From: an uncultured Acidimicrobiia bacterium
GTDB taxonomy: Bacteria > Actinomycetota > Acidimicrobiia > Spongiisociales > Spongiisociaceae
Length of the DNA stretch: 64,000 bases
Direction: 5' to 3'
Assembly: GCA_958295745.1 (NCBI GenBank)
Contig: OY282370.1
Span: 2,888,548 to 2,952,547, forward strand
The notes below the pieces were generated by a model. The model was not told where the DNA came from, ran no database searches, and saw only the letters and a program-made list of their open reading frames with translations. The first letter of the stretch is position 1. The number at the start of each line of letters is the position of its first letter. A program made the translations under genes and the position numbers. Positions 59,263-64,000 of this stretch are shown in pieces.

Positions 59263-61335
59263 TCAGGCGCCGAACCAGCGTTCGTGGAGCCGTTCGTAGA
59301 CGCCGGACTCGATCAATTCGAGCAGGGCGAGGTCGATCTGCTCGCGCAACTCGTCCTCGTCCTCGCCGATGACCAGCCCGTACCGCACCTTCTCGAAGAG
59401 TGGTCCGACCGTCGACACCTGGCCGCGGCCCTGGCGGGAAGCATGGAAACGGAGCACGGGGGCGTCGAACACGACGGCGTCCACTTCGCCCAGGGCCAGG
59501 AGGTCGTAGGCCTCGTCGATCTCGTCCACCAGCACCGGACCCACCCCGATCGTCGAAAGATAGGACTCCCCGGCCGATCGGGCCACGGTGGCCACCCGTT
59601 TCCCCGGCAGATCGGTGGGGCCGGAGATGCCGCTCCTCAGCTCGCTCACCGCCAGCGAAGAGGCGATGGAGGCGGTGAAGCTGGCGAACACCAGGGTTCC
59701 CAGGGCGATCCATATGAGCGCCACCACCCGCCCCCTAATTCCCCGGGCCACTTTGTCACCGTATCCCACCGTGCTCATGGTCACCACCGACCAGTAGAAG
59801 GAGTCCCATATCCCCCGCAGATACGGAGTGGCGAAGTCGGGGTTGTGCCGGCGTTCCAGCAACCAGATCAGATGCGCCGCCACCAGCACCGCCACCCCGA
59901 ACACGATCAGCAGCCAGGGCAGGTCGGAGGATGAGATGGCCCGGAAGAAGCCCAGGATCCGGTCGCCGAAGGTGCGGGCGGCGCGGGTGGGCGCCAAGAT
60001 GGTCAGGCCGGTGTCGAGCACCGGGAGGGAGAAATCGACCAGCTCGGCGCGTGATCCGGTGATGGCCACCCCTCCCAGCGCCAACCGGGCCGCCCCGCGG
60101 GTCACGTCGTCGAGCTGTTTGGCGACGGTGTCCACCCCGTAGATATCCACCGTCATTCCCAGCCGGGCCGCCAGGAAACGGACCAGCTCCACCTCGAAGC
60201 CGCTGTAGGCGCGGTTCTCGTAGATGACGTAGGGCGGCAGCGGGCGGGCCGCCACGGTCAGCACACTGCCGTCCGCCGCCGTTTGCTCGCTTCCGGTGTC
60301 GTCCAGCCCCACGGCACCGGGGTCGGCGGTCTCGATCCAACGGTCGACCATGGCCCGGTTGTCCGCTATCCACTCCTCGGCGTGCCGCCGGATATCCGCC
60401 GGGTCCCCTTCGTCGGCCACCATCCGGGCGTTCTGTGCCGAGATGTCGTCGAGGGGGATGACCACCTGCTCCAGCAGCCGGCGGATCGACGGGTTGTCCG
60501 CCAGGAAGCCGGAATTGGCCACCACCAGGATGTCGTTGGGCGGCCAGCCGGTCTGGCACGGGTCGTTGGCGCAGCCGGGAATGCCGGGAATGGAGGTGCG
60601 GTCGAGCGCCGCGGCCTGATCCGGGGGGAGAGAAGGAAAGGGTGTCTCCAGCCACACCACATCACGGCCGGGCACCAGCTCGCCCACCGTCCAGTTGGGG
60701 GTCCAGGTATAGAAGAGCACGGGCTGCCCGGAGTTGTAACGGTCGATCGTCTCGGTTATCAACGGTGAATAGTCGCCCTGTACGTGCTCGACCGCGCCGG
60801 ACAAACCGTAGGCTTCGAGGTGGTGGTCTATGGTCGCCGTGCAGGACCATCCGATGTTGCAGCCGATGAGGTCGGCCCGGCCGTCTCCGTCGCGGTCGAA
60901 AAGGGCGGCGATCGTAGGATCGGCCAGGTCGCCGAGGTTGGTGAGGCCGTGAGCCTCGGCGGTCGCCGCGTCGACGAAATAGCCTTGGAGCGCCCCGTCG
61001 TCGACCTGCGTGCCGACCCGTTCCACCGGGCCTCCCTCCTCGACGTAGGAGTCGTGCAGCGGGAACCATCCGTTGGCCCACAGGTCGACCCCGCCCGCCG
61101 CCGCGGCCCGGTAGAACTCGGCGACTTCCATGGTGACCGGACCTTCCACCGGGTAGCCGAGCATCTGGAGCAGCAACCGGTAGACCTCCGCCTGGAACCA
61201 TCCGGTGTCCCAGGTGGGCCGGGCAAGGCGCACCGTCGGCTTTTCGTCGGGAGTCTGCGCCGACACCCCCGCGACCGGCGGGAGGACCAGCACGGCGGCC
61301 AGGATTCCCAGGACGGCGATGGCAGTTCGGCGCAT
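59263..61335 (-). CDS. OpuAC betaine-binding-like domain fused to GluR0-type ligand-gated K+ channel
   Basis: About 690 aa. A Sec signal peptide (1-26, AVLGILAAVLVLPPVAGVSA) precedes an OpuAC/ProX-like substrate-binding domain (about 35-330), with TWDTGWFQ, DLWANGWFPLHD and an inserted DRDGDGRAD loop (147-155) resembling an EF-hand calcium loop. A second ligand-binding domain of the SBP_bac_3/ionotropic-glutamate-receptor type begins near 365 (LPPYVIYENRAYSGFEVELV). It is split by a two-helix pore module: M1 WLLIVFGVAVLVAAHLIWLL, pore loop SVVTMSTVGYGDKV (TVGYGD at 522-527, potassium selectivity) and M2 VALIWIALGTLVFASFTASI. The second lobe (GPTDLPGKRVATVARSAGES to the end) follows. This S1-M1-P-M2-S2 order is that of cyanobacterial GluR0. 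ATG 61335. Divergent from a BCCT carrier. The fusion with OpuAC suggests gating by a compatible solute. Confidence 0.88.
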   Translation of the reverse strand: MRRTAIAVLGILAAVLVLPPVAGVSAQTPDEKPTVRLARPTWDTGWFQAEVYRLLLQMLGYPVEGPVTMEVAEFYRAAAAGGVDLWANGWFPLHDSYVEEGGPVERVGTQVDDGALQGYFVDAATAEAHGLTNLGDLADPTIAALFDRDGDGRADLIGCNIGWSCTATIDHHLEAYGLSGAVEHVQGDYSPLITETIDRYNSGQPVLFYTWTPNWTVGELVPGRDVVWLETPFPSLPPDQAAALDRTSIPGIPGCANDPCQTGWPPNDILVVANSGFLADNPSIRRLLEQVVIPLDDISAQNARMVADEGDPADIRRHAEEWIADNRAMVDRWIETADPGAVGLDDTGSEQTAADGSVLTVAARPLPPYVIYENRAYSGFEVELVRFLAARLGMTVDIYGVDTVAKQLDDVTRGAARLALGGVAITGSRAELVDFSLPVLDTGLTILAPTRAARTFGDRILGFFRAISSSDLPWLLIVFGVAVLVAAHLIWLLERRHNPDFATPYLRGIWDSFYWSVVTMSTVGYGDKVARGIRGRVVALIWIALGTLVFASFTASIASSLAVSELRSGISGPTDLPGKRVATVARSAGESYLSTIGVGPVLVDEIDEAYDLLALGEVDAVVFDAPVLRFHASRQGRGQVSTVGPLFEKVRYGLVIGEDEDELREQIDLALLELIESGVYERLHERWFGA

Positions 61336-61625: not shown

Positions 61626-63392
61626 ATGACTGAAAGGGACCTGACCGAGGCAACCTCGGCGCTTCAGGACTGGGAGCAGGAGGAGGAAGGCCGTCGGCAG
61701 GAGGCGATCCACAACCGGAAAGCCTTCGAAGGCCTCCAGGTCGATCCCGACATCGAGTTCTATCCAGAGGTGGCCGACCGTTCGCCCGGTGATAAGAACA
61801 TCGTCCGGTTCGGGTTCGACATGCACCCACAGGTAACGTTCTGGTCCGCCGGATTCCTTACAGTCTTCATCGCCCTGTCGCTGATCTTCTCCGACGCCAC
61901 GAGCGGGATATTCGGCGCCATTCTGAGTTTCATAAACGAAAGCTTGGGTTGGCTGTACGTCCTCGACTTCAACATCTTTTTGGTCTTGGGCATCTATTTC
62001 GCCATGAGCAGATATGGAAAGATCCGCTTAGGCGGCCCCATGGCCCGGCCGGAGTTCTCGACCGGCGCCTGGTACGCGATGTTGATATCGGCCGGTATCG
62101 GCATCGGGTTGATGTTCTGGGGGGTCGCCGAGCCGATCTTCCACCTCAGCTCGCCTCCGCCCGTGTTCGGCGCAGAGCCGGCGACGGGAGAGGCCGCGAA
62201 GGCGGCGATCGCGACGACCTATCTGCACTGGGGATTCCATGCTTGGGCTCTCTACGGGCTCGTCGCCCTTGCGCTGGGGTTCTTCGCGTACAACCGGGGC
62301 TTGCCCCTTACCTTCCGGTCTATCTTCTACCCGATCCTCGGGCCGAAGATCTACGGCGGTTGGGGCAACGCCATCGACACATTGACCGTCGTGGCGACCC
62401 TGTTCGGGCTGGCGACTTCGCTGGGGTTCGGCGCCGGCCAGGCCGCAGCCGGATTGAACAGACTGTTCGGTTGGCCGTCGGACACCTGGTTCCAGATCGT
62501 GCTGATCGCCTGCATCACGGGTCTGGCCACCATCTCGGTGGTCGCCGGATTGGATGCCGGTGTGAAGCGGCTGAGCCAGCTCAACATCTACCTGGCCGGG
62601 GCGTTCCTGCTATTCGTAGCGATAGTCGGACCGACCCTGTTCATACTCTCGCTGTTCACCCAGAGTCTGGGCCACTACATAAGCATCCTGCCCGAGTTCG
62701 GCTTCTGGAACGAGGCTTTCACGGGCACCAATTGGCAAGCGAGTTGGACCATCTTCTACTGGGGATGGTGGATCTCATGGTCGCCGTTCGTAGGGATGTT
62801 CGTAGCCCGGATATCGAAGGGCCGCACCGTTCGGGAGCTGCTCTTGGGCATCATCTTCCTGCCTTCGGTGCTGTGCTTCCTCTGGTTCTCGGTCTTCGGC
62901 GGATCGGCTATCCGCCTGCAGCTCACCGGAGCCAGGGATGTGGCGACGGCCGTCAACGAAAACGTGGCGACAGCCCTCTTCGACATGCTGGAGGCCTTCC
63001 CGCTGACCGGCTTCGTCTCCTTGGTCGGCGTGTTCCTGCTGGTCTCGTTCTTCGTGACCTCCTCGGACTCCGGCTCTCTGGTGGTGGACCATCTGACTTC
63101 GGGAGGCAAGCTCGACTCGCCCAAACCCCAGCGGGTGTTCTGGGCGGTCATGGAAGGGACGGTCGCCATCGTCCTGCTGCTCGGCGGCGGCCTGTCGGCC
63201 CTGCAGACTGCGGCGGTCGCAACCGGACTTCCGTTCGCCATCATCCTGCTCATAATGTGTTGGAGCCTCAAGAAGGCCTTCGACGAAGAGCTGGACCTGT
63301 TGGAGAGTCACTACGACGAGGCGATCTTCCGCTCCCGCCACAAGGGGCTCCTCACCAAACTGGGGCTGTCCCGTGACCAGGAGGAGGTGTGA
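61626..63392 (+). CDS. BCCT-family betaine/choline/carnitine transporter
   Basis: A 588-aa secondary transporter with 12 membrane segments. The family signature WGWWISWSPFVGMFVARISKGRTVRE contains the aromatic substrate-binding box, supported by GIGLMFWGVAEPIFH and SFFVTSSDSGSLVVDHLTS. A 75-residue acidic N-terminus and a charged C-terminal tail (DQEEV) may serve osmosensing, as in BetP, by inference. ATG 61626 with GGAAGCGCC upstream. The next gene starts two bases after its stop. Confidence 0.93.
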   Translation: MTERDLTEATSALQDWEQEEEGRRQEAIHNRKAFEGLQVDPDIEFYPEVADRSPGDKNIVRFGFDMHPQVTFWSAGFLTVFIALSLIFSDATSGIFGAILSFINESLGWLYVLDFNIFLVLGIYFAMSRYGKIRLGGPMARPEFSTGAWYAMLISAGIGIGLMFWGVAEPIFHLSSPPPVFGAEPATGEAAKAAIATTYLHWGFHAWALYGLVALALGFFAYNRGLPLTFRSIFYPILGPKIYGGWGNAIDTLTVVATLFGLATSLGFGAGQAAAGLNRLFGWPSDTWFQIVLIACITGLATISVVAGLDAGVKRLSQLNIYLAGAFLLFVAIVGPTLFILSLFTQSLGHYISILPEFGFWNEAFTGTNWQASWTIFYWGWWISWSPFVGMFVARISKGRTVRELLLGIIFLPSVLCFLWFSVFGGSAIRLQLTGARDVATAVNENVATALFDMLEAFPLTGFVSLVGVFLLVSFFVTSSDSGSLVVDHLTSGGKLDSPKPQRVFWAVMEGTVAIVLLLGGGLSALQTAAVATGLPFAIILLIMCWSLKKAFDEELDLLESHYDEAIFRSRHKGLLTKLGLSRDQEEV

Positions 63393-63394
63393 GG

Positions 63395-64000
63395 ATGACC
63401 TACAAGGCATACAAGACGGACCACACGGTCCTGGGCGCCACCGGAACGAAGTTGGCGGGCTTGGCGGCCGCGCTGATGTTGGTGCTGGCGGCCTGCGGGG
63501 GGGACGTGGACTCCGGAGAGGTAAAGATGGCCCGGGCGGACTGGGGCAGCGGCCACATGCAGGCCGCCATCTACGCCCAGCTCATCGGTGAGCTCGGATA
63601 CGAGGTGACCGACCCGGCCGAGAACACCCTCGACCCCAACGGGTTCTACCCCGCCCTGGCCAGCGGTCAATACGACCTGTGGGCCAACGGCTGGTTCCCG
63701 CTCCACGACATCTACCTCAAAGGTGAGCTGGTCACCGGACAGGCGACCGACCTGCCGATCGAACCGGTTGGCTGGCAGGTGGCGTCCGGAGCCCTCCAGG
63801 GGTACATGGTCGACATGGCCACGTCGGAACGGCTGGGGATCACCACCATGGCCGATGTGATCGCAAACGCCGGAGCATTCGACATGGACGGTGACGGACG
63901 CGCCGACCTGATCGGATGCAACAAGGGATGGGGTTGCAACACCGTCATAGACCAGCACATCTCCGAGTTCGGCTGGGGCGGCAGCGTGGAGCAGGTGGTA
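63395..64000 (+). CDS. OpuAC/ProX-like betaine-binding lipoprotein, 3' end outside window
   Basis: The first 202 residues are visible. A signal peptide ends in lipobox LAAC (Cys34), followed by a compatible-solute-binding domain: MARADWGSGHMQAAIYAQLI, DLWANGWFPLHD (near 95-106), ALQGYMVDMATSERLGI and a DMDGDGRADLIGCNKGWGCN segment. The same WANGWFPLHD and DxDGDGRADLIGCN blocks occur in the channel fusion encoded on the other strand. ATG 63395 is two bases after the BCCT stop, with GGAGGTGTGAGG upstream. Possibly the start of an ABC importer continuing beyond the window, or a ligand-presenting protein. Confidence 0.88.
   Translation, partial: MTYKAYKTDHTVLGATGTKLAGLAAALMLVLAACGGDVDSGEVKMARADWGSGHMQAAIYAQLIGELGYEVTDPAENTLDPNGFYPALASGQYDLWANGWFPLHDIYLKGELVTGQATDLPIEPVGWQVASGALQGYMVDMATSERLGITTMADVIANAGAFDMDGDGRADLIGCNKGWGCNTVIDQHISEFGWGGSVEQVV

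Follow-up and report, generated by a model that had tools for sequence, protein, structure and literature searches.

We asked whether a bacterial ion channel can carry a betaine-binding domain. The question is raised by one gene within a window of 64,000 nucleotides (the whole stretch of DNA that was analysed) from an uncultured Acidimicrobiia bacterium. An earlier note, made from the sequence alone, had described its product as a candidate osmolyte-gated potassium channel in which an OpuAC domain is fused to a GluR0-like channel. We wondered if such a fusion is genuine, what its two halves might bind and in which genomic company it occurs.

Domain organization of the fusion protein

The gene is a single open frame with an ATG start at 61335 and a stop codon at 59263-59265. 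The coordinates in the earlier note (59263-61335) are thus correct; the strand, which had not been given there, is minus. Predicted features of the gene and of its neighbours are listed in Table 1.

Table 1. Features of the fusion channel gene and of the two genes adjacent to it (window coordinates)
Feature	Position	Strand	Basis
ProX-GluR0 fusion channel gene, 690 aa	59263..61335	-	ORF, profile searches, 42 distinct full-length fusions
Putative signal peptide, residues 1-28 (MRRTAIAVLGILAAVLVLPPVAGVSAQT)	61252..61335	-	sequence reading; AF2 helix 3-16, disorder 18-28
Putative ProX/OpuAC betaine-binding-type domain, residues 29-338	60322..61251	-	Pfam, NCBIfam, PDB, cage alignment, Foldseek
Predicted cage of the ProX/OpuAC domain: W90, H94, W163, C165, W211	within 60322..61251	-	
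Variable linker, residues 341-357	60265..60315	-	low pLDDT; usually highest dN of the gene
S1 half of GluR0-type ligand domain, residues 358-450	59986..60264	-	Pfam; R429, T426 invariant
M1 helix, residues 472-494	59854..59922	-	AF2 helix 472-494; Lig_chan 474-577
Pore helix and K+ filter, residues 505-527 (TVGYGD 522-527)	59755..59823	-	Ion_trans_2; motif conservation
M2 helix, residues 533-562	59650..59739	-	AF2 helix 533-568
S2 half of ligand domain, residues 566-690, D624 invariant	59266..59640	-	Pfam, PDB, alignment
Divergent BCCT-family transporter	61626..63392	+	ORF from 61554, likely ATG 61626; PF02028 E 1.9e-187
Orphan ProX-type lipoprotein	63389..64000, past window edge; end at window-equivalent 64450	+	L091 5937-6998, 353 aa

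The whole protein was searched against Pfam, and all matches exceeded the curated cut-offs. OpuAC was found at residues 34-324 (E 6.5e-46, 157.5 bits against a cut-off of 21.2), followed by SBP_bac_3 at residues 360-689, which is interrupted by Ion_trans_2 (506-561, E 7.8e-14) and Lig_chan (474-577, E 1.2e-12). PRK11119, the NCBIfam equivalog for ProX, also matches the N-terminal part (residues 13-338; 344 bits, cut-off 215; E 6e-103), and in the PDB this part matches E. coli ProX (1r9l, E 1.4e-66). The channel part matches the ligand domain of Nostoc GluR0 in both its S1 and S2 halves (2pyy, E 3.9e-34). Two features of GluR0-type prokaryotic ionotropic glutamate receptors (iGluRs) are present: SBP_bac_3 halves that flank the pore, and an M1-P-M2 segment with the K+ filter TVGYGD.

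A monomer model built with AlphaFold2 (AF2) has a mean pLDDT of 84.6 and a disordered linker at residues 346-354 (pLDDT below 50). With a pTM of only 0.50, it gives no reliable picture of how the domains are placed relative to each other. When the model was submitted to Foldseek, 1r9l ranked first (TM-score 0.85 by target), followed by LBD-TMD structures of iGluRs. An OpuAC fold is therefore present in the first 330 residues according to both profiles and structure comparison. Profiles and model likewise bear out the domain order proposed in the earlier note (signal peptide, OpuAC, binding domain split by M1, TVGYGD, M2), and the OpuAC, SBP_bac_3 and ion channel (Ion_trans_2) profiles it had named for the 690-residue product were all recovered above cut-offs. 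Pfam search detected no N-terminal domain of LIVBP type, the best N-terminal fold match being ProX, and the model contains no M4 helix after S2: the protein ends at S2 and no helix follows residue 688. The predicted arrangement is one of two stacked extracellular ligand-binding layers, an N-terminal ProX layer above a GluR0-type, inverted pore-loop channel that is putatively K+-selective.

Occurrence, preservation and origin of the fusion

The same architecture was looked for in other Acidimicrobiia, as the earlier note had proposed. Full-length orthologues with 61-73% identity were found in 11 of the 14 other genomes examined from the family, and one genome from a different family also has such an orthologue. 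In a twelfth genome of the family (G010), both halves border contig ends, the pattern expected when a contig is broken. Within the class, 395 genomes were examined, and four families (f1, f3, f27 and f42) contain the fusion. Three genomes outside Acidimicrobiia, among 396 genomes of the phylum, also carry it (57-59% identity); its occurrence there is patchy, as seen with denser sampling around two of the three and with the third also included. A scan of 84,980 species for the pore motif, which used strict patterns and was the only route by which other phyla were sampled, returned 38 loci; their records carry the name Acidimicrobiia or Acidimicrobiaceae, or are MAGs called simply "bacterium". 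No relative was retrieved in a viral scan that could point to phage origin, and tblastn against plasmids gave single-domain matches only, none of which covers 80% of the query.

Altogether 42 distinct full-length fusions of near-constant length were collected, nearly all from other assemblies; this set includes one (L061) that is cut at a contig end. The join recurs in all of them and hence is not the sequencing error that the earlier note had considered. An assembly or annotation error that joined two genes could be brought to mind by the two relic or truncated copies we encountered (L075 and L126). The number of distinct intact fusions, their near-constant length, low dN/dS and phylum-wide spread speak against it, and the orthologues refute an artefactual join, leaving this explanation with practically no weight.

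These degenerate copies deserve a description of their own. At L075 (4764-5827), a truncated and frame-broken copy of the fusion is found with neither BCCT gene nor orphan ProX nearby. At L126 (7584-8435), a channel relic that lacks both the ProX domain and the M1-pore part adjoins an intact BCCT-ProX pair; this relic is evidence of channel loss. A GluR0-like channel from a genome of the same family (L026, G005:C35) has SVVTGGEA in its filter region instead of TVGYGD, and is probably not selective for K+.

Comparison of close pairs revealed dN well below dS in ProX, S1, pore and S2, with the linker being loose. Purifying selection acts strongly on these four parts. In most close pairs, dN within the gene is lowest, or close to lowest, in the pore region, and TVGYGD is present in all 40 other fusions. 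Both observations argue against a loss of ion conduction in which the protein would serve as a receptor for betaine or as an accessory to transport, a reading we regard as very improbable.

To estimate relationships, phylogenetic trees were examined for ProX domains and for channels. The fusions form one clade in both (97/82 in the ProX tree, 100/100 in the channel tree), and the fusion has a single origin. In the ProX tree, channel ProX domains are closer to the group of BCCT-linked orphan ProX than to actinobacterial ABC ProX, and the long E. coli branch sits next to the fusion clade. Derivation of the channel ProX as a nested copy of the neighbouring orphan ProX was also considered and is unsupported, the two forming separate clades.

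Predicted binding sites and neighbouring genes

In E. coli ProX, glycine betaine is held by W65, H69, W140, G141, C142 and W188 (PMC10087775). The alignment of fusions places W90, H94, W163, residue 164, C165 and W211, respectively, at these positions. Tryptophan is invariant at 90 (41/41) and 163 (42/42), as is cysteine at 165 (42/42). Position 94 is histidine in 37 of 41 fusions and glutamine in four, position 211 is tryptophan in 37 and phenylalanine in five, and residue 164 is small and variable. Judged by this alignment, a betaine-type cage suited to quaternary ammonium is maintained by selection. The substitutions at H94 and W211 count against the betaine reading.

The second layer has residues of its own to consider. 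The amino-acid clamp formed by R429 and D624, together with T426, is invariant in all 40 other fusions. This counts against betaine as the main agonist, a role that an amino acid could fill. Positions 424 (five residues before the clamp arginine R429) and 588 are mostly alanine in fusions; in unfused relatives and Nostoc GluR0 they are mostly serine and threonine, respectively. Because of these changes, there may be no second ligand, or one other than glutamate. Since S1/S2 nevertheless keeps a clamp of amino-acid type, betaine may act alone, together with an amino acid, or as a docking cue.

Further, we examined genes next to the channel. A BCCT-family transporter and an orphan ProX-type lipoprotein accompany it at all 32 intact loci on genome contigs with enough flank, at the window locus and at the three loci outside Acidimicrobiia. 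The layout is divergent at most loci; at L054, L057 and L071 the order is BCCT-ProX-channel on one strand, and at L065, L066 and L106-L108 channel and ProX are convergent. Conservation of company while gene order changes points to functional linkage rather than to one frozen block. Such a module suggests, from gene content, that the channel is tied to betaine-like solutes.

As to the nature of the solute, the best PDB match of the module BCCT is TmaT (8zw8, 523 bits; BetP gives 307 bits), and the Trp/Tyr positions of the aromatic box are invariant in 44 cluster BCCTs. TmaT carries trimethylamine and shows no binding of glycine betaine (PMC11708041); the solute shared by the module could accordingly be betaine or a different methylated amine.

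The orphan ProX start overlaps the BCCT stop in the window genome, and no ABC ATPase or permease was found beside it. Stop/start overlap of this pair, without ABC subunits, is repeated in many genomes, and such a lipoprotein is an unexpected partner for a BCCT transporter. Loci that lack an intact channel can have the pair as well (L022, L089, L090 and L126-L135).

That BCCT and ABC-less orphan ProX travel together with or without the channel suggests a relation between ProX and BCCT, and opens another interpretation: the channel ProX might mainly tether the channel to BCCT, or share solute capture with the orphan ProX, while S1/S2 alone gates with an amino acid. The position of the channel ProX in the tree and the retention of R429 and D624 are consistent with it. 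On the other side, we know of no BCCT carrier, BetP and TmaT included, that depends on a binding protein, on a ProX partner or on a channel; a role in docking alone would not call for the cage that selection preserves; and the S1/S2 pocket has drifted from that of unfused GluR0-like channels (424 Ser to Ala, 588 Thr to Ala). We consider this interpretation rather unlikely. More doubtful is a single physical machine, in which the orphan ProX feeds BCCT, the channel ProX docks at the same site, and K+ exit is linked mechanically to the entry of solute.

Several arrangements of ProX genes were observed besides. Directly after one fusion channel (L047 3103-6365) lies a ProW/ProV-like ABC pair, an exception found in one genome. 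The window genome has an ordinary ABC betaine operon elsewhere (L092), with ATPase, permeases and several ProX genes. Within this ProV/ProW-type operon, along with further ProX genes, a secreted protein of 825 residues contains two near-identical ProX domains in tandem (L092 13108-15585). In the window genome, genes that by their ORF translations resemble a type I restriction-modification system immediately follow the orphan ProX (L091 7302-15168).

Proposed role and relation to known systems

The complete ProX cage and the conserved link with BCCT and orphan ProX strengthen the osmolyte idea of the earlier note. We favour, with moderate confidence, the reading that the fusion forms a tetrameric K+ channel: its N-terminal ProX would respond to betaine or a compound close to it and regulate K+ flux while solute is taken up. 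By analogy with the family, the protein would assemble as a tetramer and expose both ligand domains outside the membrane. The ProX layer, given its intact cage, would bind glycine betaine or a methylated amine much like it. Its closure would act on S1/S2, probably with an amino-acid-like ligand at R429/D624, and the pore would be opened or biased. K+ would then move, perhaps outward, when solute is available and under import; K+ would be exchanged for compatible solute, and the charge of any ion-coupled uptake offset. Inheritance of the channel together with BCCT and orphan ProX makes K+ movement during solute import its likely job.

Synechocystis GluR0, the nearest relative that has been studied, offers a different precedent. 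It is reported to act as a passive path for K+ influx under high KCl or KCl stress, which counts against our efflux-type reading; it complements an E. coli mutant deficient in K+ uptake and makes shrinkage slower after an upshock with KCl (PMC13099474). The fusion could by analogy be a path for K+ entry or volume keeping that ProX tunes by osmolyte level, without driving K+ loss. Both the partnership with a transporter and the cage for betaine, however, point to solute exchange and not to K+ uptake, and we hold this possibility to be rather improbable.

If the exchange we favour is true, a bacterial channel would read external supply of compatible solute and adjust the flow of K+ at once; two arms of osmotic adaptation, as a rule treated as separate systems, would be joined in it. 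As the channel lies almost always beside a gene for a betaine-type transporter, bacteria may tie K+ flow directly to betaine supply.

Judging by homology, the pore half is of GluR0 type and the first half of ProX type; the combination departs from GluR0 in its N-terminal domain and from ProX in its lack of an ABC partner. With Synechocystis GluR0 and Group 1 prokaryotic iGluRs the fusion shares a family-3 binding domain (S1/S2) split by M1-pore-M2, a K+ filter and clamp residues. GluR0-type channels have no N-terminal domain (PMC6385376), whereas in the fusion a complete ProX (29-338) precedes S1. In a systematic survey of 100 sequences, OpuAC is absent among the InterPro domains listed (PMC2950845). 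With E. coli ProX, the substrate-binding protein of the ProU ABC transporter, homology extends over the whole domain, including cage residues and the paired cysteines C159 and C165. Differently from it, fusion ProX is joined to a channel, ProV/ProW neighbours are absent at nearly all fusion loci, and intact loci have a BCCT neighbour instead. BetP and TmaT are themselves carriers, related to the neighbour gene by family and by its retained aromatic-box positions.

Nematode DEG-3/DES-2 channels respond to betaine, as is predicted for the fusion, but belong to the unrelated pentameric Cys-loop family and have no binding-protein domain (PMC8747062). The betaine-gated channels returned by our literature search were nematode receptors; neither an OpuAC-channel fusion nor a bacterial betaine-gated channel was found in this search, which covered few subscription papers. 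As far as it reached, the claim that no bacterial channel of this architecture has been described stands.

Eukaryotic iGluRs (AMPA, NMDA, GLR) have the same order of N-terminal ligand-type domain, LBD and pore, and their similarity is reflected in the LBD-TMD matches of Foldseek. Their N-terminal domain is of LIVBP type (type I) and they possess M4, whereas the fusion has a ProX-type N-terminal domain, no M4 and a K+-type filter. A two-layer architecture resembling animal glutamate receptors would thus have arisen separately in bacteria from a different family of binding proteins, and the fusion would represent a simple system for studying the way in which control of an iGluR pore passes to an N-terminal domain.
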